Assembly (NCBI GenBank): GCA_025453925.1
Contig: JALOPK010000061.1
Coordinates: 1 to 13,464 of the forward strand
Reading direction: 5' to 3'
Length of the DNA: 13,464 nt
DNA from: Candidatus Eiseniibacteriota bacterium
GTDB lineage: Bacteria > JAFGKV01
Below, one piece after another: positions 451 to 12,154 of this stretch. Numbering within the stretch: position 1 is the first letter of the stretch; each line of letters begins with the position of its first letter. The position numbers and the translations under genes are program-made. Under the pieces are notes generated by a model. The model worked only from the letters and a program-made list of their open reading frames with translations. It ran no database searches and was not told the DNA's origin.

Positions 451-918
451 ATGCAGCATGAACAGCGGTGGTACGACGAGACGGACCGCATTCTGACCCG
501 CAACAACAACGACCCCAGCGCGCTCATCGCCATTCTCCAAGATGCGCAACGCAAGCTGGGGTACCTGCCGAAGGCCGTGCTGGCGAGAATCGCGGAGAAG
601 CTCCACGTCCCTTTGTCGAGAGTGTACGCGGTTGCTACTTTCTACAAGGCCTTCAAGCTGAAACCCGCCGGCAAGCACGTCGTTAAGGTCTGCCTCGGCA
701 CGGCATGCCACATCAAGGGCGGGCCACAGATCATGACCGCCTTCGAGAACGAACTGAAGGTCAAACCTGAAGACGTCACGCCGGACGGCGCGTTCTCCTT
801 CGAGTCGGTGCGGTGTGTCGGATGCTGCGGCCTTGCACCGGTGATCATGGTCGACGAGAATTTCCACGGCAAGGTAACGTCGAAGGACGTGAAGCAGGTG
901 CTTGCGCACTACCGATAG
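451..918 (+). CDS. nuoE: NuoE/HydC-like thioredoxin-fold [2Fe-2S] subunit
   Basis: This 155-residue protein matches the NuoE family (24-kDa subunit of complex I; HydC/HndA/StnA-type subunits of soluble bifurcating enzymes), which passes electrons to or from the FMN subunit. The [2Fe-2S] ligands are C81 and C86 (CLGTAC) and C122 and C126 (CVGCC), with normal family spacing. The N-terminal helical region (about 1-70) with YLPKAVLARIAEKL and VYAVATFYKAF is also typical. The ATG at 451 is chosen because GGGAG (441-445) lies 5 bases upstream and the length then fits. The frame is open further upstream to about 292, but that sequence is not family-like. It is the first gene of the cluster and lies far from its NuoF partner (5210), with the signalling genes between. 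The symbol is at family level only, because no membrane complex I genes are present. Confidence 0.92.
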   Translation: MQHEQRWYDETDRILTRNNNDPSALIAILQDAQRKLGYLPKAVLARIAEKLHVPLSRVYAVATFYKAFKLKPAGKHVVKVCLGTACHIKGGPQIMTAFENELKVKPEDVTPDGAFSFESVRCVGCCGLAPVIMVDENFHGKVTSKDVKQVLAHYR

Positions 919-939
919 CAGCGGAAGAGAGGTCACCCC

Positions 940-1293
940 GTGCGGCTTACCGAGATAGTTGCTCTGCTCAATGCCGACGCGCTCGTACTCGACGACGGCA
1001 TGGATCGTGAAATCGAGACGGTGCACGCGTCCGATCTCATCAGCGAGGTGCTGGCGTCGTGCTCGAGGGGTGCGCTCTGGCTCACGGGCCTGCTCGATCT
1101 CCAGATCGTGAACACGGCCGAGCTGTTCGATCTCGCTGCTGTGGTGTTCGTGGGAAACAGGAGACCGTCCGAGGGGATTCTCGCGCTGGCGCGGGACGAG
1201 GGCATTCCCATCCTCGCGACCAGACTCACGATGTTCGAGACCTGCGGGCTGCTGCACGCCAGGGGACTGCGTCCCGGAACGAGGGGGAGATAG
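940..1293 (+). CDS. DRTGG domain protein, copy 1
   Basis: A 117-residue protein starting with GTG at 940, supported by a GAGAGG ribosome binding site about 6 bases upstream and 21 bp after the NuoE-like stop. It resembles the DRTGG family: SDLISEVLAS near residues 31-40 is the characteristic core, followed by a short alternating strand/helix pattern and a conserved-looking C-terminal segment ILATRLTMFETCGLL (91-105). DRTGG domains occur alone or beside CBS domains and phosphotransacetylases, and their ligand is not well established. Small DRTGG proteins recur beside clostridial-type hydrogenase operons. It has no membrane segment or signal peptide. A diverged second copy lies at 3098-3442. 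The precise role is unknown; a regulatory small-molecule-binding role is my inference. Confidence 0.8.
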   Translation: MRLTEIVALLNADALVLDDGMDREIETVHASDLISEVLASCSRGALWLTGLLDLQIVNTAELFDLAAVVFVGNRRPSEGILALARDEGIPILATRLTMFETCGLLHARGLRPGTRGR

Positions 1294-1296
1294 CCT

Positions 1297-1755
1297 ATGG
1301 CCATCGAGGATCCCGTGCTGTTCCGCAGGGTGTTCAAGATCACAGGCGGCGATTTCCAGAACGCCGGCTCCGTGTCCAAAGAGATCAAGAAAGCGTTGAA
1401 GCAGCTCAATACTGACGCCGAGGTGATCTGGCGCGCCATGATCGTCTCCTACGAAGCGGAGATGAACGTGGTACTTTACGCCCGGGAGTGCGAGATGACA
1501 CTGGAGATATCGCAATCCGGCATCCATCTCGTGTTTGACGACCGTGGCCCCGGCATACCGGATGTCGGCCTGGCCATGACGGAAGGGTATTCGACCGCCA
1601 CGCGCGAAATGCGCGAGAGAGGATTCGGGGCCGGTCTGGGGCTTCCCAATATCAAGAAGACATCGGACCACCTCGAGGTGGTCTCCACGGTTGGGTTCGG
1701 AACCCGGCTCGACATTCGTCTCATGTTCCCCGCGGCGGTCTCCAAGGCAGCATGA
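1297..1755 (+). CDS. RsbW/SpoIIAB-like ATP-binding protein (HATPase_c)
   Basis: A 152-residue single-domain GHKL ATPase starting 3 bp after the preceding stop, with a strong GGGGGAG ribosome binding site (1283-1289). The N-box is in YEAEMNVVLYA (E53 and N57, the E-x3-N pattern of anti-sigma-factor kinases), the G1 box in DDRGPGIPD (81-89), and the G2 box in GFGAGLGLPNI (109-119). Such proteins bind or phosphorylate sigma-factor regulators (RsbW, SpoIIAB, RsbT) or act as stand-alone kinase domains. There is no dimerisation/phospho-acceptor histidine domain, so it is not a complete histidine kinase. No anti-anti-sigma factor or sigma factor lies in the window, so its target is unknown. Tight coupling to the DRTGG gene and the H-cluster protein suggests a joint signalling unit. 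Confidence 0.88.
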   Translation: MAIEDPVLFRRVFKITGGDFQNAGSVSKEIKKALKQLNTDAEVIWRAMIVSYEAEMNVVLYARECEMTLEISQSGIHLVFDDRGPGIPDVGLAMTEGYSTATREMRERGFGAGLGLPNIKKTSDHLEVVSTVGFGTRLDIRLMFPAAVSKAA

Positions 1756-1824
1756 GACAGACTAGTCGGCCTTGGCCATCGTCATTCTCCGGCGTCGCCC
1801 GCGGATGGATGAAAGAACGCACGC

Positions 1825-3135
1825 ATGCTGCTTGAGCACTATTCGCACTCCATCATGATAGACCGGAACCTCTGCACCGGCTGCGTGATCTGCACGCTGG
1901 CCTGCCCCGTGCAGGCCATTCGGGTGAGAGACGGCAAGGCCGACGTGGTAAAGAGCAACCAGTGCATCGACTGCGGTGAATGCCTCCGCGTGTGCCCGCA
2001 CCAGGCGGTTCGCTCAATGACCACCAAACGGCAGGACCTGACTGGCTACAAGGCGCTGGCGGCCCTTCCATCACCCGTGATCTACGCCCAGTTCGGCGAC
2101 ATGCACACGCCGAATGACGTGCTTCTCGCGCTGAAGGGCGTTGGGTTCGACTACGTCTTCGATCTGGCGGTGAACTGCGAGATGGTGTTCATCGCCATCG
2201 ATGAGTACCTGCGGCGGAATGCCGCGCCGCGGCCGATGATTTCCAATTTCTGCCCTCCTATCGCGCGCATGATCCTCAAGAGCTATCCGAATCTCGTGCC
2301 CAATATTCTTCCCATCGAGGTGCCGAGAGAGACCGCCGCCAAGACCGCCCGCAGGCGGATCGCCGAAGACCGCGGGATCGCCCCGGAGGACGTGGGCGTC
2401 TTCCACATCACCCCGTGTGCGGCTAAGGTGGTGTCCATCATGAGGCCGGTCGGGGTGGACAAATCGAACCTCGACGGCGCTATTGCCATTCGTGACCTGT
2501 ATGTGCCGATCAAGAACGCGCTGAATAACATCGGCGAGGTCGAAGACGAGTGGATTCTCCAGAAGTCCAGCGGCGTCGGCATCAGTTGGGCCATCGGCCG
2601 GGGCAGCGTTCGCGGGCTTCCCAATCGGCGGACCCTCTCGGTCACGGGCGTGAAGGATGTGATCCGAATTCTCGATGATGTGGACGCGGGAAGAGTCGAA
2701 GGCATCGACTACCTGGAACTCTCCATCTGCCCGGGCGGCTGCGTCGGGGGCCCCCTCGTCGTGGAGAACAAGCATGTCGCTACGAGCCGCATCGAGGATC
2801 TCATCGAGCAGTACGGAGTCCGCAGCAGGGTCGATACCCGCAAGGTGGTGCGTCAGTTCGAGCAGACCTACCTCCTGAGCAGTTCGCGGTTTCACGCGCA
2901 GGCGCCCGAGCCGCTGGATACGGACCTCCGCCGCGCCCTGGAGAAGATGAGCCGGATCGAGGAGCTGACCTCGATGCTGCCCGGGAAGCAGTGCGGCGCA
3001 TGCGGCGCGCCCTCGTGCCGGGACCTCGCCGAGGACATTGTTCGAGGGAACGCGACACCGTCGGACTGCGTGTTCATCCGCGTGAAGGAGTTGGAAGATG
3101 CGTGTGCGGGACATCGTGACGGCGCTGAGTCTTGA
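1825..3135 (+). CDS. Putative sensory [FeFe]-hydrogenase (H-cluster domain with ferredoxin-like ends)
   Basis: A 436-residue iron-sulfur protein. Residues 11-65 carry two [4Fe-4S] motifs (C17, C20, C23, C27 and C47, C50, C53, C57). Residues of about 85-345 form the [FeFe]-hydrogenase large-subunit domain. Its H-cluster ligand cysteines are present in the three signature loops: NFCPP (C143), TPCAAK (C198) and CPGGC (C302, C306). Residues 390-415 form an extra Fe-S motif, C-x2-C-x4-C-x16-C (C390, C393, C398, C415). The proton-relay cysteine preceding C143 is F142, and the Met and Glu of the MPCxxKxxE loop are T196 and S204. These changes and the signalling neighbours fit the putatively sensory [FeFe] groups (C or D) rather than a catalytic enzyme. 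It lacks a PAS domain. ATG 1825 is the only start in frame after an upstream stop, and its ribosome binding site is weak. The downstream DRTGG gene overlaps its end by 38 bp. Confidence 0.85.
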   Translation: MLLEHYSHSIMIDRNLCTGCVICTLACPVQAIRVRDGKADVVKSNQCIDCGECLRVCPHQAVRSMTTKRQDLTGYKALAALPSPVIYAQFGDMHTPNDVLLALKGVGFDYVFDLAVNCEMVFIAIDEYLRRNAAPRPMISNFCPPIARMILKSYPNLVPNILPIEVPRETAAKTARRRIAEDRGIAPEDVGVFHITPCAAKVVSIMRPVGVDKSNLDGAIAIRDLYVPIKNALNNIGEVEDEWILQKSSGVGISWAIGRGSVRGLPNRRTLSVTGVKDVIRILDDVDAGRVEGIDYLELSICPGGCVGGPLVVENKHVATSRIEDLIEQYGVRSRVDTRKVVRQFEQTYLLSSSRFHAQAPEPLDTDLRRALEKMSRIEELTSMLPGKQCGACGAPSCRDLAEDIVRGNATPSDCVFIRVKELEDACAGHRDGAES

Positions 3136-3442
3136 GATCATTCACGAGGGGGAGCACCTGGATGATCCCGTCGAAGGCGGCTATGTCGGTGACCTCCTGA
3201 GCGACGTCATCGCCTCGGCGCGGCGGCGTGACTTCTGGATCACCATACAGTCTCACGAAAACATCATTGCGGTGGCGACCCTGAAGGACCTGGCGGGAGT
3301 CGTGCTGGCGAAGAATACCACGCCGCACGCGGAGACGGTGGAGCACGCGAAGCGGGAGAACGTGACGCTGCTGAGATCGTCCATGACCTCGTACCAGCTC
3401 GTCGCACGTCTCGCCGGCCTGGGGATCTCCGGCGACCGGTGA
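3098..3442 (+). CDS. DRTGG domain protein, copy 2
   Basis: A 114-residue protein whose start lies inside the end of the H-cluster gene (38-bp overlap), with a GGAG ribosome binding site about 8 bases upstream of ATG 3098. GGYVGDLLSDVIASA (27-41) matches the DRTGG core better than copy 1 does, and the C-terminal LLRSSMTSYQLVARLAGLGI (91-110) aligns with the C-terminal segment of copy 1. The two copies share a fold and length but are clearly diverged, so they are probably old paralogues with distinct jobs. The overlap implies translational coupling to the putative sensor. The PHP gene begins in its last codons (GTGA overlap). The ligand and function are unknown. Confidence 0.82.
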   Translation: MRVRDIVTALSLEIIHEGEHLDDPVEGGYVGDLLSDVIASARRRDFWITIQSHENIIAVATLKDLAGVVLAKNTTPHAETVEHAKRENVTLLRSSMTSYQLVARLAGLGISGDR

Positions 3443-4191
3443 CCCCGCGGTGCTATCGGGCCGACCTGCACGTGCACACGTGCCTCTCGCCCTGCAGCGA
3501 CTTGGAGATGTCTCCCCAGGGCATTGTACAGACCGCTCTGACCCGCGGCATCGACATCATCGGCATCAGCGACCACAATTCGGCGGGGAATGCCGGCGCG
3601 GTCATGCGTGCCGCCGAGGGTTCGTCGCTTTCGGTCATCCCTGGCATGGAGATCACCACGGCCGAAGAAGTGCACGTCCTCGGCCTTTTCCCGACCCTGG
3701 AGGCGGCGGAGCGCGTGCAGAAGACAATGTATGCGGGTCTGGGAACCTCCGAGAACGAGGGGTACGTGCAGGAACAGGTACTCGCCAACGAGGCCGACGA
3801 GGTGGAGGGTTTCTGCGATCGTCTTCTCGTCGCCGCATCGCTCCTCTCGCTGGAACGAATCGTGAGACTTATTCATCAGGAGGACGGGCTCGCCATCGCC
3901 GCCCACATCGACCGGCAGGCTTATGGGATCATCGGGGTTTTGGGGTTCATTCCGCGGAGTCTTCCGTTCGATGCGCTGGAGGTAAGCCGGCATGTGCCGT
4001 TGCGGACGGCTCACCAGGCTTTCCCCATGTACGATCGCTGTCCTTTCACCACCAGCTCCGATGCCCATTACCTGAAGGACTTGGGCACAGCCTGCACACC
4101 TTTGCGCCTGGCCCAGCCCTCATTCGAGGAGCTCCGAATGGCATTCCGGGGCATGGATGGGCGCGGGGTAGACGTGGAGCGCTGTGCATGA
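3439..4191 (+). CDS. PHP-domain metal-dependent phosphoesterase-like protein
   Basis: A 250-residue PHP (polymerase and histidinol phosphatase) domain protein. Metal-binding motifs are in order: H11 and H13 (DLHVHT), D45-H46-N47 (GISDHNS), E71 (GMEIT), H79, H156 (AAHIDR) and D208/H210 (SSDAHY). All expected metal ligands appear present, so it should be a tri-metal hydrolase of a phosphate ester, as in TrpH/YciV relatives. The substrate cannot be read from sequence. The start is GTG 3439 in a 4-base GTGA overlap with the DRTGG gene, and the stop overlaps the next gene's ATG. PHP genes in this setting recur beside [FeFe]-hydrogenase operons, where they have been presumed to be signalling phosphatases. 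It is cytoplasmic, with no signal peptide. Confidence 0.9.
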   Translation: MTPRCYRADLHVHTCLSPCSDLEMSPQGIVQTALTRGIDIIGISDHNSAGNAGAVMRAAEGSSLSVIPGMEITTAEEVHVLGLFPTLEAAERVQKTMYAGLGTSENEGYVQEQVLANEADEVEGFCDRLLVAASLLSLERIVRLIHQEDGLAIAAHIDRQAYGIIGVLGFIPRSLPFDALEVSRHVPLRTAHQAFPMYDRCPFTTSSDAHYLKDLGTACTPLRLAQPSFEELRMAFRGMDGRGVDVERCA

Positions 4192-4724
4192 AAGAGCTGG
4201 CCCTGCATATTCAGGACATCGCGGAGAACTCGGTCCGGGCGGGCGCGGCCTTGATCGAGATCCAGGTCACGGAGGACGCGCGGGCCGACCGGCTCACCGT
4301 TTCCATTGTGGACAATGGATGCGGCATGGATCAGGAGACCGCGGCTCGCGCGCTTGATCCGTTCTTTTCCACCAAAGACGTCCGCAAGGTGGGCATGGGC
4401 CTTTCCCTCTTCCAGCAGGCCGCACGCCGCGCCGGGGGCGACATGGTGCTCCATACCGAGAAGGGAGCGGGAACGCGGGTCGTGGCGTACTTCCAGAGGT
4501 CCCATATCGACCGGCAGCCGCTGGGCGACATGGCGGCGACGATCACCGCCATCCTGCTTCAGAATCCTGCGGTCGAAGTGGTATTCTGCCACGCGACGGA
4601 CGACGACGAGTTCAGGTTCGATACCAGGGAGTTGCGAACGATCCTGGATGACGTGCCGCTCAGTGATCCAGAAGTGCTCCGGTTCATCTCGGGGCTCATA
4701 CGGGAGCGGCGTCATCTCACATGA
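4188..4724 (+). CDS. Histidine-kinase-type ATPase domain protein (HATPase_c) with a C-terminal extension
   Basis: A 178-residue protein starting at ATG 4188 in an ATGA overlap with the PHP gene. Residues 1-103 form a GHKL ATPase: N-box DIAENSVRAGA (E13, N14), G1 box DNGCGM (42-47), FFSTK (59-63) and G2 box GMGLS (69-73). These boxes are like those of true sensor histidine kinases, in contrast to the RsbW-like copy at 1297. There is no phospho-acceptor histidine domain, sensor domain or transmembrane segment. The last 75 residues, beginning SHIDRQPLGDM, are outside the ATPase fold and not recognised. It could phosphorylate a partner protein or work as an ATP-driven switch. No response regulator is encoded nearby. 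Co-translation with PHP suggests a kinase/phosphatase pair, which is inference. Confidence 0.87.
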   Translation: MKELALHIQDIAENSVRAGAALIEIQVTEDARADRLTVSIVDNGCGMDQETAARALDPFFSTKDVRKVGMGLSLFQQAARRAGGDMVLHTEKGAGTRVVAYFQRSHIDRQPLGDMAATITAILLQNPAVEVVFCHATDDDEFRFDTRELRTILDDVPLSDPEVLRFISGLIRERRHLT

Positions 4725-4756
4725 GCGTGTGCTCACCAGGCGAGGAAGGGTGACCA

Positions 4757-5140
4757 ATGGCAAAGCTGACCATCGACGAACTGAGACGTATCAGGGATGA
4801 GGCGAAACGGACCCGCAACCTTCGCGAGGGGGAGGGCAAGGCACGGATCACGGTGCACATGGGAACCTGCGGCATCGCCTCCGGCGCCCGGGAAGTGATG
4901 GATTCGCTGCTGCGGGCCATCGACGACCACGGAATCAAAGACGTGCTCGTCACCACCTCGGGCTGCGCCGGGCTGTGCAGCCACGAGCCAATGGCCACGG
5001 TCGAGTACCGCGACACCGCGCCGGTGAAGTATGCCAAGCTGACGCCCGAAGGCATCGTAAGAGTGTTGCTGGAGCACGCGGATGCGGGTAGCATCGTGCG
5101 CGAGTTCGCGCTGGCCATCGGCAGCGAGAAGATGAGCTGA
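4757..5140 (+). CDS. HndB-like [2Fe-2S] thioredoxin-fold ferredoxin
   Basis: A 127-residue protein with a strong GAGGAAGGG ribosome binding site (4742-4750) 6 bases before ATG 4757. After a charged N-terminal helix (1-27), the segment VHMGTCGIASGAREVMDSL (C38) and GCAGLC (C70, C74) match the small thioredoxin-like [2Fe-2S] proteins typified by HndB of the Desulfovibrio NADP-reducing hydrogenase. Only three cysteines are visible, against four in NuoE-type domains. As far as I recall, the three-cysteine pattern with TCGIA is normal for this branch, with the fourth ligand unclear. It sits directly upstream of the NuoF-type gene, as hndB does before hndC, and is likely a peripheral electron-entry or electron-exit subunit of the complex. 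Confidence 0.85.
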   Translation: MAKLTIDELRRIRDEAKRTRNLREGEGKARITVHMGTCGIASGAREVMDSLLRAIDDHGIKDVLVTTSGCAGLCSHEPMATVEYRDTAPVKYAKLTPEGIVRVLLEHADAGSIVREFALAIGSEKMS

Positions 5141-5176
5141 TCATGATCATGGTCTTGGCACCGCACACCCGACGCA

Positions 5177-5193
5177 GCTCTGAGGTTCAGAGC
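5177..5193 (+). promoter_or_regulatory. Intercistronic hairpin before the NuoF-type gene
   Basis: GCTCTGA (5177-5183) and TCAGAGC (5187-5193) pair perfectly around a 3-base loop (GGT). The hairpin lies in the 69-bp gap upstream of the NuoF-type gene, ending about 7 bases before its GGGGGA ribosome binding site. It could mark an RNA processing or stabilising site that sets the ratio of complex subunits to upstream signalling proteins. No T-tract follows, so it is not a standard terminator. Confidence 0.35.
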
Positions 5194-5209
5194 CGGTTAG
5201 GGGGAATGC

Positions 5210-7003
5210 ATGGATAGGTTTCGTTCGCACTGTCTGGTCTGCACCGGAACCGGATGCGTCTCCAATGGCGCGTTCGCCGTGAAGAGCGTTCTGGAGGCCG
5301 AGCTGAAGACCCGCGGCCTCGAACACGAGGTACAGGTGGTGGGCACCGGCTGCAACGGCTTCTGCGAGCGCGGTCCCGTGATGCTGGTCCAGCCCGAAGG
5401 GGTCTTCTACCAGCAGCTCAAAGTCGAGGACATACCCCATCTCGTCGAAGAGCATTTCCTCAAAGGCCGGCCGGTCACGTCGCTCATGTATTCGCCGACC
5501 ACGCAGGATGAAACCGTTCCGCTGATGCGGGATATCGGGTTCTTCAAGGATCAGGTCCTCGTCGCCCTGCGCAACAGGGGGCGCATCGATCCCGAGATGA
5601 TCGAAGACTACATCGGACATGACGGGTACTCGGCGCTGGAGAAGGTGCTCTCGCAGATGACCCCGGATCAGGTCGTGGCCGAGATGAAGAAGTCGGGCCT
5701 GCGTGGGCGCGGTGGCGCGGGCTTCCCCACCGGCCTGAAGTGGGAGTTCTGCCGTCGGGCGACCGGGTACCCGAAGTACATCATCTGCAACGGCGACGAA
5801 GGCGATCCCGGAGCATTCATGGATCGTTCGATCCTGGAAGCCGACCCGCACTCCGTGCTTGAAGGCATGGCCATCGGCGCGTATGCCATCGGGGCGCAGC
5901 ATGGCATCCTCTACGTGCGCGACGAGTATCCCCTGGCCATCAAACGGGTGGAGATCGCGATCCAGCAGGCGCGGAACCTCGGGCTTCTCGGCTCCGACAT
6001 CCTGGGGACCGGTTTCTCGTTCGATGCGAGAGTGGTCCGCGGCGGCGGGGCCTTCGTGTGCGGCGAAGAGACCGCGCTCATGGCTTCGGTGGAAGGCCGG
6101 GAAGGCCGGCCGCGGTTCAGGCCTCCCTTCCCCGCAGAGAAGGGTGTCTGGGGCAAGCCCACCAACATCAACAATGTCGAAACGTGGGCCAATGTGCCGC
6201 CCATCATCACTCGAGGCGCCGATTGGTTCGCATCGATGGGCACCGAAACGAGCAAAGGAACCAAGATCTTCTCGCTGGTCGGCACCGTGAACAACTCCGG
6301 TCTGGTCGAAGTGCCCATGGGCATCACGATCCGCAAGATCGTGTTCGACATCGGCGGCGGTATCCCGGGTGGGAGGGCCTTCAAAGCGGTACAGATCGGC
6401 GGCCCTTCCGGCGGCTGCATTCCGGCTGAACTGCAGGATACCATCATCGACTACGAGTCGCTCAGCAGAACGGGCGCCATCATGGGCTCCGGCGGCCTGG
6501 TGGTGATGGACGAGCGCACCTGCATGGTGGACGTGGCCCGCTACTTCCTCGAGTTCACCCAGAGCGAATCATGCGGGAAGTGCACCTTCTGTCGGATCGG
6601 TACCAAGCGGATGATGGAGGTCCTGACCAGGATCTGCGAGGGGAAGGGCGCGCCCAGCGACATCACCCTGCTTGAGGATCTCGCGGTCAGGATTCGAGAC
6701 TCGAGCCTGTGCGCGCTCGGTCAGACGGCGCCCAATCCCGTGCTGACGACGCTGCGGTACTTCCGGCACGAGTACGACGCGCACATCAACGAGAAGCGGT
6801 GCCCGTCCCATGTGTGCCCGGCGCTGCTTGTGTATGGAATCGACCCGGAGAAATGCACCGGGTGCACCCTCTGCGCCCGGGTCTGCCCCGTGAAGGCCAT
6901 CACCGGCGAACGCAAACAGGTGCACGTCATTGACAAGGCACTCTGCATCAAGTGCGGCCAGTGCTATGCCGCCTGCCGTTTCGATGCAATCACCAGGGAG
7001 TAG
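5210..7003 (+). CDS. nuoF: HydB/NuoF-type FMN subunit with NAD(P)H site and extra Fe-S domains
   Basis: A 597-residue flavoprotein with the full domain order of HydB/HndC/StnB-type subunits. Residues 1-90 are a thioredoxin-fold [2Fe-2S] domain (C11, C16, C48, C52). The FMN/NADH-binding NuoF core (about 110-510) has GLRGRGGAGFPTGLKW (163-178), NGDEGDPGAFMDRS (194-207), GGGAFVCGEETAL (278-290) and NINNVET. The [4Fe-4S] site is SCGKCTFC (C455, C458, C461) plus C501. CPSHVC (531-536) precedes two ferredoxin-type [4Fe-4S] motifs (C549, C552, C555, C559; C579, C582, C585, C589). This subunit exchanges electrons with NAD(H) and is the proposed bifurcation site in HydABC-type enzymes. ATG 5210 follows GGGGGA. 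An out-of-frame ATG at 5206 stops after three codons. Chain-terminal ferredoxin domains distinguish it from plain complex I NuoF. Confidence 0.95.
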   Translation: MDRFRSHCLVCTGTGCVSNGAFAVKSVLEAELKTRGLEHEVQVVGTGCNGFCERGPVMLVQPEGVFYQQLKVEDIPHLVEEHFLKGRPVTSLMYSPTTQDETVPLMRDIGFFKDQVLVALRNRGRIDPEMIEDYIGHDGYSALEKVLSQMTPDQVVAEMKKSGLRGRGGAGFPTGLKWEFCRRATGYPKYIICNGDEGDPGAFMDRSILEADPHSVLEGMAIGAYAIGAQHGILYVRDEYPLAIKRVEIAIQQARNLGLLGSDILGTGFSFDARVVRGGGAFVCGEETALMASVEGREGRPRFRPPFPAEKGVWGKPTNINNVETWANVPPIITRGADWFASMGTETSKGTKIFSLVGTVNNSGLVEVPMGITIRKIVFDIGGGIPGGRAFKAVQIGGPSGGCIPAELQDTIIDYESLSRTGAIMGSGGLVVMDERTCMVDVARYFLEFTQSESCGKCTFCRIGTKRMMEVLTRICEGKGAPSDITLLEDLAVRIRDSSLCALGQTAPNPVLTTLRYFRHEYDAHINEKRCPSHVCPALLVYGIDPEKCTGCTLCARVCPVKAITGERKQVHVIDKALCIKCGQCYAACRFDAITRE

Positions 7004-7025
7004 GGCGGTGAGTGGAGCAACAACC

Positions 7026-10000
7026 ATGACGAAGGTGAAGGTTACGATTGACGGCGTCGCCGTCGAGGCCGATCCCCAGGAGACCATTGTGCAAGTCGCC
7101 AGGCGGACCGGCGTTGCCGACATCCCGACTCTCTGCTACAGCCCGCTGCTTCCGCCCTATGGATCCTGTTTCGTATGCGTCGTCGAGGTTGAAGGCGCCC
7201 GAACCCTCCAGCCTGCGTGCGCCACGCGGGTGCGCGAAGGTATGGTCATCCATACGCAATCGGACCGGGTGCGCCAGACGCGCAAGATGGCGTTAGATCT
7301 CTTGCTGTCCGCCCACTGGGCCGACTGCATCGGACCATGCCAGATGGGCTGCCCGGCCGGTGTCGACGCCCAGGGGTACCTGGCCCTGGCCCGGGAAGGG
7401 CGCTATGCGGACGCCGTCGAACTCATCAAGCGAGTGAATCCGCTGCCGATCGTCTGCGGCAGGGTCTGCGTCCGGGCCTGCGAGGTCGCGTGCGAGCGCC
7501 AGAAGGTGGACGAGCCCGTGGGGATCAACTTCGTGAAGCGATACGCCGCCGAACTGGAGCAGGGCGAGGTGTTCGTGCCGCAGCCGGCTCCGGCCACGGG
7601 GAAACGCGTGGCAATTGTCGGGAGCGGCCCCGCGGGGCTCACCTGCGCCTATTACCTGGCCCTGGAAGGCGTCGCGTGCACCATCTTCGATGCATGGCCG
7701 AAGCCGGGCGGGATGCTTCGTTACGGAATACCTGAGTACCGTCTCCCCAAGCACCTGCTGGATCTCGAGATCGGCACCGTCACCCGCCTCGGCGTCGAGA
7801 TCAGAACGGGAGTGTGTCTCGGCACCGATGTGACGCTTACCGGTCTCCGGCGCGACCACGACGCGGTGTTCGTGGCAGTGGGAGCTCCCGTGGGGCAGAA
7901 GATGCGGGTCGACGGCGAGGACACGACGGAGGGCGTGCTCTCAGGGCTGGACTTCCTCACCCGGATTCTGCTTGGCAACCCGCTCCAGGTCCACGGCAAG
8001 GTGGTCGTGGTGGGAGGCGGCAATACGGCCATTGACGCCGCGCGAACCGCGTTCCGGCTGGGGGCCGACGAAGTGGTCATCCTGTACCGTCGCACGCGGA
8101 CCGAGATGCCTGCCGACGCAGTCGAGATCCATGCGGCGGTCGAGGAAGGCGTCGAACTCCAGCTTCTGGCCGCGCCCACCGGAATCGTCGCGGAGAACGG
8201 CAGGCTGAAGGGTATCAACGCTCTCCGCATGGACTTGGGCGAACCGGATGCCAGCGGAAGACGCCGGCCAGTTCCGATCCCCGGAAGCGACTACTTCATC
8301 CCGTGCGACTACGTGTTCGGCGCCATCGGCCAGGCCACCGACCTCTCGTGGGCGAAGGGCGCCGATGAGAGCGCCAGCGGGCTCTCGCGGACGAAGTGGG
8401 ATACGCTCACGGTCAATGACCGCACCATGGAGACCAACATCGGGGGCGTGTTTTCCGGCGGTGACGTCGTCACTGGCCCCAGCGTGGTAATCGAGGCCAT
8501 CAGCCACGGAAGACGCGCGGCCACAGCGATCCTCTCGTACCTGAAGACTGGGGCTGCCACAGCGGTCCCGAAGCCTTTCTACAGCACGCGGGAGCGCCTG
8601 GGAGCCGCCACCGGTGAAGACCTGGCCCACGTCGCAAAGGCTCCGCGAAGCGCCATGCCCGAAGCGGATGCGCATGCGCGAAAGCGCGCCTGGGACGAAA
8701 CGGAGCTGGGGCTCGGGGAGGATGCGGTCCGATATGAGACCGAACGGTGCCTGGTATGCGGCTGCCTGGATCTGGGTGACTGCGAACTCCAGAAGCTGGC
8801 TACCGAGTACGGCGCTGATCCGACACGCCTGAAGGGCGAAATCGTCCGGCACAAGCCTGACGAAAGCCATCCTTTTATCACGTTGGACAACAACAAGTGC
8901 ATCCTCTGCGGCAAGTGCGTGGCGATCTGCCGAGATCTCGTCGGTCCGGCCGCGCTGGGCTTCGTGACCCGCGGGTTCTCCACCACAGTGCGGCCGACCA
9001 TGGAAACGCCGCTGGCGGAATCGCCCTGCATCGGGTGCGGCAACTGCATCGATTCCTGCCCCACCGGCGCGCTCATGGACAGGCTGCGCTACCGCAAGCT
9101 CCGCGAATGGAAGGCCGAGTATCACGAGACGGCGTGCGCTCACTGCGCGGTCGGGTGCACCCTGCGGTTCGCCACCCTCGTGCCCGGGCTCTTCTGGGTG
9201 CAGACACCGGAGGAGATCGCTGAGCCATCCCGTACCTTCCTCTGCAAGAGCGGCCGCTACGGCCATCGCTACCTGACAGTGCCGGAGCGGCTGAACCAGC
9301 CGCTGATTCGGGAGAACGGCGCACTCCGCCCCGCATCGTGGGACGAGGCGCTGGACCGGGCGGCGGCCATCATGAAATCGGCTGCCGAGGCGGATGCCAA
9401 TGGGGTGGCAGTCATCGGAAGCGGCGCACTCACGCTGGAGGAGGCGTTCCTGCTTCAGAGACTGGGACGGCGGGCACTGGGCACGGCCCACGTGGTCACC
9501 GGCGCCCAACTCGCGGGTCGGGCCTTTGATCGAGGGCTGGACGGGCTCGTCGGGCTCACCGCATCCACGGTATCCATGGAGGCCCTGGACTCGGCCGATC
9601 TGGTCGTAGTCGCGGGAGTTGACCCGGCACAGGCCGCTCCGGTCGTGGATTTCCGTCTCCACCAGGCCCTCCTTCGGGGTGCGAAGGTGGTATACATCGG
9701 TCCGCTTTCGGTCGGGGCGGGCGCCAAGGCGACAGTTTCCGTGACCACGGACAGTGCCGCCCCCGTTGCGGTGGCATTGCTGCGCAGGCTCGCGACCGAA
9801 GGCGGTTTCGACCGGCCGTATCTCCGTGAACGGTGCTCCGGCTTCGACCGGCTCGAGTACCATCTGAGGAGCCTCTCGGAAGAGGAACTGCTGGATGCCG
9901 GGAGTGTGGACATGGAGACGCTGGTCTCCGCGGCCCTCTGCGTCCGATCCGTGACCGGCCGGGTGATCGGCATCGCGGGCGGCGGCGTGGAGGAGGAAGG

Positions 10001-10730
10001 CGCCCTGCGGGTGTTGACGCTTCTGCTCCTCTGTCTGGGCAAGCTCGGCGTCGAAGGCTCAGGTCTGATCATGCTCCGCGCGGAGGCCAATGATCAGGGA
10101 ATGCCGGCTGTGGGACTCCACCCCGAGTTCCTGCCCGGACGGATCGCCGCGAAGGGCGGCTCCCTCGGGGCCACCCGCACCGCCCTGGGTACGGTGCAGG
10201 CCGCCCTCGTGGTGGGCGATGATCCTCTCGGCACTGCGGGCGCACGCCCAATGGCGGCCGATGGCGTGGATCTGGTGGTCCTCGATGCACTCCCGACCGC
10301 CACCACCGGCGCGGCGCAGGTCGTGCTGCCCATATCCGCCCCTGCGGAAACCAGCGGGCGGTTCCTCAACTTCGAACGGCGCCTGATCCCCCTGGTCAAG
10401 TACGCCGATCCGCCTGGCGGGAAGGAAACATGGAAGGTGCTCGCCGCACTGGAGGCGCGTCTGGGGAGCGACGCCGGGTACGGGAGTCTGGCAGAACTCA
10501 TGTGCGCCGTCGATGGAGTACTGACAGGCGCCTGCGGTGTGTCCCCCACACCCGAGCCGTCGTATCTCCAGCGGTTCCTGACCCCAAGCGGGCTCGCCGA
10601 ACTCGGCCGGCCCGACGTGCTGGCAGGAGTCACCAAGCGGGCCGCTGCCGCTCAGCCGACGGGCACCATTTCCCGGTGGGTCGGTGAGTACCTGGCGCAC
10701 GCACAGACGGGTCCATCGGTCGAAGACTGA
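7026..10730 (+). CDS. Large fusion: NuoG-like Fe-S protein with inserted GltD/NfnB NADPH-FAD module (Stn-type large subunit candidate)
   Basis: This 1234-residue protein has several modules in order. Residues 1-75 are a NuoG-type [2Fe-2S] domain (C37, C48, C51, C65). Residues 95-175 are a GltD-type double [4Fe-4S] domain (C101, C105, C109; C144, C148, C152, C156). Residues 190-510 are a GltD/NfnB flavoprotein with FAD motif GSGPAG (199-204), second dinucleotide motif GGGNTA (330-335), the NADPH-type RRTRTEMPA (355-363) and FSGGDVVTGPS. CLVCGC (575-580) and C586 resemble the NuoG His-Cys cluster region. Two ferredoxin motifs follow (C625-C635, C668-C678), then a molybdopterin-oxidoreductase-type [4Fe-4S] (C704, C707, C711, C740) and a degenerate molybdopterin-type domain to the end. 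No H-cluster is present. ATG 7026 has GGAG 8 bases upstream; GTG 7008 is an alternative. The best functional guess is an NADP(H)-linked transhydrogenase subunit paired with the NuoE- and NuoF-like proteins. Confidence 0.88.
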   Translation: MTKVKVTIDGVAVEADPQETIVQVARRTGVADIPTLCYSPLLPPYGSCFVCVVEVEGARTLQPACATRVREGMVIHTQSDRVRQTRKMALDLLLSAHWADCIGPCQMGCPAGVDAQGYLALAREGRYADAVELIKRVNPLPIVCGRVCVRACEVACERQKVDEPVGINFVKRYAAELEQGEVFVPQPAPATGKRVAIVGSGPAGLTCAYYLALEGVACTIFDAWPKPGGMLRYGIPEYRLPKHLLDLEIGTVTRLGVEIRTGVCLGTDVTLTGLRRDHDAVFVAVGAPVGQKMRVDGEDTTEGVLSGLDFLTRILLGNPLQVHGKVVVVGGGNTAIDAARTAFRLGADEVVILYRRTRTEMPADAVEIHAAVEEGVELQLLAAPTGIVAENGRLKGINALRMDLGEPDASGRRRPVPIPGSDYFIPCDYVFGAIGQATDLSWAKGADESASGLSRTKWDTLTVNDRTMETNIGGVFSGGDVVTGPSVVIEAISHGRRAATAILSYLKTGAATAVPKPFYSTRERLGAATGEDLAHVAKAPRSAMPEADAHARKRAWDETELGLGEDAVRYETERCLVCGCLDLGDCELQKLATEYGADPTRLKGEIVRHKPDESHPFITLDNNKCILCGKCVAICRDLVGPAALGFVTRGFSTTVRPTMETPLAESPCIGCGNCIDSCPTGALMDRLRYRKLREWKAEYHETACAHCAVGCTLRFATLVPGLFWVQTPEEIAEPSRTFLCKSGRYGHRYLTVPERLNQPLIRENGALRPASWDEALDRAAAIMKSAAEADANGVAVIGSGALTLEEAFLLQRLGRRALGTAHVVTGAQLAGRAFDRGLDGLVGLTASTVSMEALDSADLVVVAGVDPAQAAPVVDFRLHQALLRGAKVVYIGPLSVGAGAKATVSVTTDSAAPVAVALLRRLATEGGFDRPYLRERCSGFDRLEYHLRSLSEEELLDAGSVDMETLVSAALCVRSVTGRVIGIAGGGVEEEGALRVLTLLLLCLGKLGVEGSGLIMLRAEANDQGMPAVGLHPEFLPGRIAAKGGSLGATRTALGTVQAALVVGDDPLGTAGARPMAADGVDLVVLDALPTATTGAAQVVLPISAPAETSGRFLNFERRLIPLVKYADPPGGKETWKVLAALEARLGSDAGYGSLAELMCAVDGVLTGACGVSPTPEPSYLQRFLTPSGLAELGRPDVLAGVTKRAAAAQPTGTISRWVGEYLAHAQTGPSVED

Positions 10731-11099: not shown

Positions 11100-12020
11100 A
11101 TGCCCGAACTCCCCGAACTTGAAGGCTACGTCGAGGCGCTGACCGGCCGAATCATGGGCGAGAAGCTCGCCGGAATCGAGCTGCGCCATCCATTCCTGCT
11201 CCGCACGGTGGAACCGGCGCCCCGAGAGGTCGAGGGGAAGGTCGTGCGGGGCGTCCGGCGGATCGGCAAGCGTCTGGCCATCGGCCTCGACGACGATCTG
11301 TGGCTCATGCTGCATCTCATGCTCGGGGGGAGACTTCACTGGCATGAGGCGGGGCGTGGCCCCAAGGGACGCGGGCACCTCGCGGCCTTCACCTTCTCAT
11401 CCGGCATGCTCACCCTCACCGAGTTCGGCACCAAGAAACGGGCGTCGCTCCACATTGCCCGGGGTCCGGACGCCGTGCAGGCGTTCGATCGCGGCGGGCT
11501 CGAGCTACTCGATGCCGATCTGAACGCCTTTCGGCGCGTGCTCACCTCCCGCAATCACACCCTCAAGAGGGCCCTGACCGACCCGACCCTGTTCAGCGGT
11601 ATCGGCAACGCCTACTCCGACGAGATCCTGCACCGCGCGAGGTTGTCGCCGGCGACGCTGAGCCAACGACTCTCAGATGAGGAGACCGGGCGGCTCTACC
11701 TTGCCGCACGTGAGCTGCTGCGCGAGTGGATCACGCGGGTGCATGATGGGGCCCGCGGGGGCTTCCCGAAGGAGATCAATGCCTCGCGCGTCGCCATGGC
11801 CGTGCACGGCAGGTATGGGCAGGCCTGTCCGGACTGCGGCTCACTCGTGCAGCGGATCAGGTACGCGGAGACCGAGACGAACTACTGCGCCCGCTGCCAG
11901 ACGGGAGGCCGTCTTCTTGCCGACCGCTCTCTCTCGCGACTCCTCAAGAAGGATTGGCCCCGCACGCTGGAGGAATTGGAAGAGCGGGCGAGCACGATCG
12001 TCCAGCGGTCCGGGCCGTAG
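11100..12020 (+). CDS. mutM: Formamidopyrimidine-DNA glycosylase family protein (Fpg/MutM or Nei-like)
   Basis: A 306-residue base-excision repair enzyme. After removal of Met it begins PELPELE: P2 is the expected Schiff-base nucleophile and E3 the catalytic acid, which also fixes the start at 11100 (GGAG at 11089-11092). K57 in the loop RRIGKRL matches the conserved beta-hairpin lysine. The helix-two-turn-helix is at about 160-182 (FSGIGNAYSDEILHRA). A C-terminal zinc finger has C243, C246, C263 and C266 (C-x2-C-x16-C-x2-C). The family removes oxidised bases such as 8-oxoguanine and nicks the strand. The arginine usually found five residues before the third zinc cysteine (E. coli Fpg QRATFYC) is T258 here (ETETNYC), so substrate range may differ from true MutM and the symbol is provisional. 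It is monocistronic and probably unrelated to the upstream operon. Confidence 0.9.
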   Translation: MPELPELEGYVEALTGRIMGEKLAGIELRHPFLLRTVEPAPREVEGKVVRGVRRIGKRLAIGLDDDLWLMLHLMLGGRLHWHEAGRGPKGRGHLAAFTFSSGMLTLTEFGTKKRASLHIARGPDAVQAFDRGGLELLDADLNAFRRVLTSRNHTLKRALTDPTLFSGIGNAYSDEILHRARLSPATLSQRLSDEETGRLYLAARELLREWITRVHDGARGGFPKEINASRVAMAVHGRYGQACPDCGSLVQRIRYAETETNYCARCQTGGRLLADRSLSRLLKKDWPRTLEELEERASTIVQRSGP

Positions 12021-12116: not shown

Positions 12117-12154
12117 TGTGCGCCACTATTCTCACATTAGAATAGTGACGCACA
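12117..12154 (-). terminator. Long inverted repeat between convergent genes, possible bidirectional terminator
   Basis: The 16-base arms 12117-12132 and 12139-12154 are complementary at 15 of 16 positions around a 6-base loop. The inner 9 bp (CACTATTCT / AGAATAGTG) are perfect and unusually AT-rich for this region. The single mismatch (12123 with 12148) is C-A in plus-strand RNA but G-U in minus-strand RNA. The hairpin is therefore fully paired when read from the FG-GAP gene side. There is no run of T on either side. It could be a terminator for both genes or a dispersed palindromic element. Confidence 0.5.

Follow-up and report, generated by a model that had tools for sequence, protein, structure and literature searches.

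A ten-gene operon at positions 451–10730 of a 13,464-nucleotide stretch of DNA from a Candidatus Eiseniibacteriota bacterium (contig JALOPK010000061.1; hereafter, the window) most likely encodes a soluble electron-bifurcating NADPH/NAD/ferredoxin transhydrogenase of the Stn (Nfn-Bfu) type, in which a StnC-like large subunit is combined with a NuoE/NuoF core and an accessory gene cassette of a separate lineage. Judging from sequence, we assign this reading a probability of roughly 85%; it builds on the computed domain architecture, the conservation of residues and of the operon, and conflicting subunit trees. The enzyme class has been known since 2020, and what is new is its setting in a Candidatus Fermentibacteria-like bacterium, with an unusual NuoF and the cassette. 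The source is a metagenome-assembled genome (MAG; G000, 3.9 Mb, 82% complete), and among named relatives a Candidatus Fermentibacteria MAG comes closest, with 77% identity in StnC.

The final gene of the operon (7026–10730, plus strand) starts with ATG and encodes a full-length StnC-like protein of 1234 amino acids that consists of a NuoG [2Fe-2S] domain, an inserted GltD/NfnB NADPH-FAD (flavin adenine dinucleotide) module, the NuoG Fe-S region, and a FdhF-like domain that appears to be inactive. The Pfam order is Fer2_4 (residues 2–79), Fer4_20 (103–178, the GltD/DPD Fe-S domain), Pyr_redox_2 (194–495), NADH-G_4Fe-4S_3 (575–598, only the second half of the model), Fer4_Nqo3 (616–683), and molybdopterin oxidoreductase (755–1143), with dinucleotide motifs GSGPAG at 199 and GGGNTA at 330. 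The GltD/NfnB module is complete (approximately residues 102–575) and interrupts the NuoG [4Fe-4S] motif, with H97xxxC101 preceding the insertion and C575–C586 following it; in the hydrogenase A subunit of another cassette operon (L109), the same Pfam motif is continuous (residues 85–123). An earlier note on this DNA, made from the sequence alone, had described this succession of a NuoG [2Fe-2S] domain, a complete GltD module with two dinucleotide motifs and the remainder of NuoG, and Pfam, the motifs and the AlphaFold2 model bear it out in content and coordinates. It also held that the module occupies the place of the H-cluster subunit in a bifurcating hydrogenase, and this is true to the letter: the L109 operon has HydA exactly at the StnC position. 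Pfam finds no H-cluster domain (PF02906 plus PF02256) in the window's A subunit, and the hydrogenase reading was rejected on this ground; the domain is present in L109, L111, and L120.

A phmmer search against all solved chains returned, as the two best and nearly whole-length matches, 9bov_A (the NfnABC of Caldicellulosiruptor; E 4.8e-230) and 8oh5_C (StnC of Sporomusa ovata; E 4.1e-213, residues 1–1172), such that StnABC, which the earlier note had named as the nearest architecture while doubting that the family is new, is indeed close. Hydrogenases, complex I and formate dehydrogenases, two of which (the first and the last) had been considered as possible full-length matches, align far more weakly and with single parts of the protein only. 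Residues 1–1190 were modeled with AlphaFold2 from an alignment of 20 sequences, yielding a mean predicted local distance difference test score (pLDDT) of 76.9; the GltD core reaches about 90, and residues 599–695 stay below 50. In VIA-align comparisons of the whole model, 9bov_A and 8oh5_C again rank first. A missing FAD/NADPH pocket, which would have spoken against the earlier note, was not borne out by modeling, with residues 100–508 superposing on NADP(H)-bound NfnB (5jca_L) at Z 34.7 and a root-mean-square deviation (rmsd) of 1.4 Å over 401 residues. At about 30 Å, the whole-chain rmsd indicates that the model captures the individual domains correctly but not their arrangement relative to one another.

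Residue conservation points in the same direction. K171 (equivalent to the cluster ligand K170 of StnC) and R239 are kept in all 27 family members, 25 cysteines between positions 37 and 740, ligands for the StnC clusters C1–C7, are invariant across the family, and so is the NADPH-type loop YRR...EMPA. By sequence and fold, we place the protein in the known Stn/Nfn-Bfu transhydrogenase family. With S. ovata StnABC (8oh5; PMC10482914, PMC7483475), the window shares the domain order of the large subunit, K170/R239, the cluster cysteines, the inactive FdhF-like domain and the three core subunits, but the S. ovata genes are consecutive and cassette-free. The NfnABC complexes of Caldicellulosiruptor saccharolyticus (9bov) and Thermococcus sibiricus (9n5u) have the same architecture, 9bov_A being the top match in both sequence and structure, but the A subunit of the archaeal complex has about 270 fewer residues than that of the window. 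NfnAB (Pyrococcus furiosus, 5jca) resembles the window in the closely superposing GltD module but differs in three respects: the window lacks NfnA, a Lys replaces the Glu at the proximal cluster, and bifurcation is expected at the flavin mononucleotide (FMN) of NuoF rather than at the FAD.

The partners of the StnC-like subunit are less typical of Stn. The NuoE/HydC/StnA-like subunit (451–918, plus strand; 155 amino acids; PF01257, E 2.4e-51), with one [2Fe-2S] cluster and the predicted role of gate in the bifurcating core, has as its nearest solved relative the HydC of Thermoanaerobacter kivui (8a6t_C; 157 bits), as opposed to 120 bits for StnA (8oh5_A). Scores, cysteine columns and the tree identify the 597-residue NuoF/HydB/StnB-like subunit (5210–7003, plus strand; PF01512, PF10589, Fer4), which contains an FMN/NAD domain, a 4Fe-4S cluster and a C-terminal ferredoxin domain with all ligands for two further 4Fe-4S clusters. 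It scores highest against HydB of the A. mobile NiFe enzyme (882 bits), followed by A. woodii HydB (822), the B subunit of NfnABC (803) and StnB of StnABC (761). Of the domain set reported for BfuABC (IPR011538, IPR019554, IPR019575, and IPR017896 in B; IPR002023 in C; PMC9304861), PF01512, PF10589, Fer4, and PF01257 were found, and the matches at E ≤ 1e-3 did not include SLBB (IPR019554).

The N-terminal thioredoxin-type [2Fe-2S] site of NuoF is intact (C11, C16, C48, C52). All four cassette-associated Stn proteins have these four cysteines, as do hydrogenases from cassette operons, L109 among them; in all 19 ordinary Stn NuoF proteins that a survey of 386 genomes provided for comparison, positions 11 and 16 are Gly-Gly. 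Glycines at two of the four positions have been reported for S. ovata StnB (PMC7483475), which in this respect differs from the window protein. Given the complete site, the complex should have one [2Fe-2S] cluster more than ordinary Stn, S. ovata Stn included, a prediction open to testing. NuoF neither carries the Gly-Gly pair nor groups with ordinary StnB and, by these features, is not a canonical StnB.

The NuoF tree places the window protein with its counterparts from L037, L038, and L102 (support 100/98) and then with L107 (100/99), a cassette operon whose A subunit is NuoG/Fdh-like, apart from the ordinary Stn B subunits; a tree that unites all Stn B subunits in one clade is rejected (approximately unbiased test, p-AU 0.0007). 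The tree of the StnC GltD domain, rooted on GltD/NfnB outgroups, conflicts with this picture: the three close cassette StnC are nested among ordinary StnC (96/91), with L102 branching separately, and a clade of ordinary StnC that leaves out the cassette StnC is rejected (p-AU 0.0003). The NuoE sequence is short, and its tree does not resolve deep branches. Identity to the window is 52–79% over nine genes of L102 and 38% in StnC, and 58–82% over nine genes of L038 and 62% in StnC; the values for individual genes in L038 and L102, respectively, are 82 and 79% for NuoF, 70 and 67% for the Fe-hydrogenase-like protein, and 64 and 70% for the first DRTGG protein. Thus, the history of StnC departs from that of nine otherwise collinear genes and, given the conflict between the trees, the operon appears chimeric, the A and B subunits differing in history; it looks like a part-swap in which a StnC A subunit was joined to the NuoE/NuoF core and cassette of a separate bifurcating-enzyme lineage.

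Alternatively, this could be an ordinary Stn operon in which the differences in NuoF and NuoE reflect early divergence, the cassette being ancestral and lost by ordinary Stn operons. NuoF is still 51–63% identical to its ordinary Stn counterparts, and full-length sequences do not reject a clade uniting the four cassette StnC, as expected if StnC entered the cassette operon only once (p-AU 0.1). However, such divergence does not fit the rejection of one Stn clade by the NuoF trees, the position of cassette StnC inside ordinary StnC or the sharp drop of identity at StnC in L102, which L038 does not show, and we consider this explanation rather unlikely. A double, independent entry of StnC is suggested by the GltD-domain tree, in which the single entry is rejected (p 0.027), and finds no support in the full-length data. 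Besides the full-length test, several observations count against our reading of a Stn-type enzyme with a swapped subunit: the rooting of the NuoF tree is uncertain, the Fe-S region 599–695 of the StnC-like model, which bears on subunit contacts, is poorly predicted, and C114 of S. ovata StnC is Ala in the window. However, each of the 27 sequences compared has Val, Ile or Ala at this last site, and C114 has already been termed not strictly conserved (PMC10482914).

The ten genes of the operon are co-directional and tightly packed; several overlap, and no gap exceeds about 70 bases. Between NuoE and NuoF lie the seven genes of the cassette, all on the plus strand: a DRTGG-domain protein (940–1293; PF07085, E 1.1e-5), the position of which is kept in L037, L038, L102, and many other cassette loci; a conserved small HATPase of the anti-sigma/RsbW-like type (1297–1755; PF02518, E 1.8e-7); a [FeFe]-hydrogenase-like Fe-S protein of 436 amino acids (1825–3135; PF02906, E 1.4e-29, with PF04060, motifs and the AlphaFold2 fold in agreement); a second DRTGG-domain protein (3098–3442; PF07085, E 2.7e-6); a PHP-domain protein (3439–4191; PF02811, E 6.6e-8); a second HATPase, of the histidine-kinase type (4188–4724; PF02518, E 5.5e-15); and a small thioredoxin-like protein of the [2Fe-2S] type at the HydD/BfuD position (4757–5140), with a weak PF01257 match under the cut-off (E 4e-4) and 78–90% identity in three other cassette-Stn operons. 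The ten-gene order recurs in a separate MAG (JAFGKV010000121; L037/L032) and in two further genomes (L038, L102), which rules out mis-assembly or chance; the genome carrying L102 shares only the domain (taxonomic rank) with that of the window. The earlier note had suggested that the domain tail and the gene context may be new; the tail is the same inactive FdhF-like domain as in StnC, but the context holds up, with a NuoEF core other than ordinary StnB and the seven-gene cassette.

Using the hydrogenase-like protein as bait (E ≤ 1e-40), we found the cassette protein in 35 of the 386 genomes. Most of the loci (26 of the 36 that were read) adjoin NuoE/NuoF, NfnAB or HdrA-like genes, the other 10 being alone or cut by a contig end. 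The partner is StnC in four loci, HydA in five (L109, L111, L120, L154, and L156), NuoG/Fdh-like plus NfnA in four (L107, L112, L114, and L119, the last three with NfnB as well) and an NfnA-NfnB fusion in two (L103 and L104); the remaining partnered loci have NuoEF or HdrA-like genes with other or unseen partners. HydABC/BfuABC enzymes (A. mobile NiFe, 7t2r; A. woodii, 7q4v) share with the window the NuoE/NuoF core, in some genomes the cassette, and an A subunit encoded after NuoF, but the window has an NADPH-FAD module in place of the H-cluster domain. In the open-access literature searched, no DRTGG/PHP cassette beside bifurcating enzymes is described, although it may be described elsewhere.

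Most likely, the cassette regulates or matures the complex. More tentatively, we suspect that it serves electron-bifurcating enzymes in general, for control or assembly, whatever their third substrate (H2, NADPH or others), with the hydrogenase-like protein acting as an H-cluster-free Fe-S redox sensor, and that A subunits (HydA, StnC, NuoG/Fdh-like) have been swapped on a fixed chassis, StnC at least once and perhaps twice; this wider scheme is possible rather than probable. The operon illustrates gene-level modular evolution of bifurcating enzymes: a single chassis of NuoE/NuoF and cassette is combined with HydA in one set of bacteria and with StnC in another.

The hydrogenase-like protein comprises two 4Fe-4S clusters, an H-domain and a C-terminal PF04060 FeS domain, without a small-subunit domain, and its AlphaFold2 model (pLDDT 89.7) has a hydrogenase fold (template modeling score 0.65–0.68). 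The window protein and most other members retain all four cysteines for the [4Fe-4S] half of the H-cluster, and the proton-relay Cys is absent in all 23 proteins aligned, which is still compatible with a relay-less sensor. HydG is missing from 13 of the 29 carrier genomes (11 of the 25 near-complete ones), and G001, G002, and G221 lack HydF along with HydG. Without H-cluster maturases, the proteins in such near-complete genomes cannot hold an H-cluster or sense H2. The window protein, the genome of which does encode HydF and HydG, is probably an H-cluster-free sensor or regulator, the second prediction that can be put to the test. Similar degenerate H-cluster motifs, partly near bifurcating-enzyme genes, characterize the group C1 [FeFe]-hydrogenases of Hydrogenedentota (PMC11406978), a likeness by description only; the window protein differs in lying beside a transhydrogenase, and several of its relatives occur in maturase-free genomes. 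Whether group C1 proteins sense H2 was left open in that study; should the cassette protein belong to this group, its occurrence in near-complete maturase-free genomes would imply that it does not in those organisms.

It is also conceivable that the cassette is the remnant of a hydrogenase operon, an H2-sensing regulator that plays no part in the transhydrogenase. HydABC has this cassette beside it in five loci, and HydF, HydG and a hydrogenase fragment occur in G000 as well. The intact cassette beside StnC in two distant groups, its occurrence next to NfnAB fusions and the carriers that lack both maturases make this unlikely. On contigs C269 (L043) and C406, G000 encodes the [FeFe]-hydrogenase fragment, a hydrogenase-histidine kinase, a HydE-like protein, HydG and HydF; with none of the two maturases in the near relatives G001 and G002, gain, loss and contamination are the alternatives.

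Returning to the proposed transhydrogenase, its mechanism is modeled on S. ovata, where NADPH reduces the FAD of the GltD module, which is not the bifurcating flavin (PMC10482914, PMC7483475), and electrons pass from the StnC clusters to the FMN of the NuoF subunit, the FMN and the NuoE [2Fe-2S] cluster gating ferredoxin electrons during NAD+ reduction (PMC10482914). All parts required for such a mechanism are encoded in the window, and we infer the reaction, electron path, direction and complex formation by this analogy. NADPH would deliver hydride to the FAD in the GltD module of the StnC-like subunit, from which electrons would travel singly through the Fe-S clusters of that subunit to the FMN in NuoF and then to NAD+ and, at the C-terminal ferredoxin-like domain of NuoF, to ferredoxin, gated by NuoE. 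In the cell, the direction may be the reverse, from NADH and reduced ferredoxin to NADPH. An indirect sign that the enzyme is a transhydrogenase comes from the tree of the hydrogenase-like protein, in which members beside transhydrogenase-type enzymes (cassette Stn, NfnAB fusion and the L107 type) form one group (Shimodaira-Hasegawa-like approximate likelihood ratio test, 99).

A non-bifurcating or otherwise coupled NADPH-dependent oxidoreductase, for example, an NADPH:sulfur reductase, would have a precedent in the related Thermococcus NsoABC, the original description of which was that of an NADPH-dependent sulfur oxidoreductase (PMC10482914, PMC7483475), but it appears improbable given the full bifurcating NuoEF core with its ferredoxin domain and the demonstrated bifurcation by the close relative T. 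sibiricus Nfn-Bfu (PMC9304861). A formate dehydrogenase-type enzyme with an active molybdopterin-like domain and the GltD module for NADPH coupling, suggested by the PF00384 match (E 4.1e-27), can be practically dismissed because the active-site Cys/Sec is missing, with no cysteine in the expected region (741–936) and no in-frame TGA, in agreement with the inactive FdhF-like domain of StnC, which has no formate activity (PMC7483475, PMC10482914). Mutual exclusion of Nfn and Stn was dropped as a line of support after G001 was found to have both Stn and an adjacent NfnA-NfnB pair.

Other arrangements of the same parts were seen in the survey. L112, L114, L119, and L107 combine NuoE, NuoF, a NuoG/Fdh-like protein and NfnA (with or without NfnB) with cassette genes in one operon, an arrangement that resembles an unfused StnC in which NuoG and NfnB are encoded by adjacent genes. 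In the L111 (G122, with HydA) and L113 (G106) operons, NuoF (at 11182 and 11030, respectively; 1017–1030 amino acids) carries a C-terminal GltD/NfnB-type fusion, a second route for adding an NADPH-FAD module to the bifurcating core. L116 (G048; 3323–9821, minus strand) has the cassette, NuoE and NuoF followed directly by an RnfD-like gene, with no A subunit, and possibly is a NuoEF module that feeds the Rnf complex. L110 and L115 (G144 and G281) are stand-alone cassettes without NuoEF, directly upstream of apparent cell-division genes (mraZ, rsmH, ftsI and mur ligases, named by sequence starts only). Elsewhere in G000, contigs C339 and C393 each contain a FdhA/NuoG-like gene with one in-frame TGA, probably selenocysteine formate dehydrogenases. 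Rfam, tRNA and PADLOC scans returned nothing relevant. Downstream of the operon, a near-perfect 16-base inverted repeat with a 6-base loop (12117–12154), between a MutM-like gene (11100–12020) and a converging FG-GAP-like open reading frame, is likely a terminator or the end of a short mobile element.

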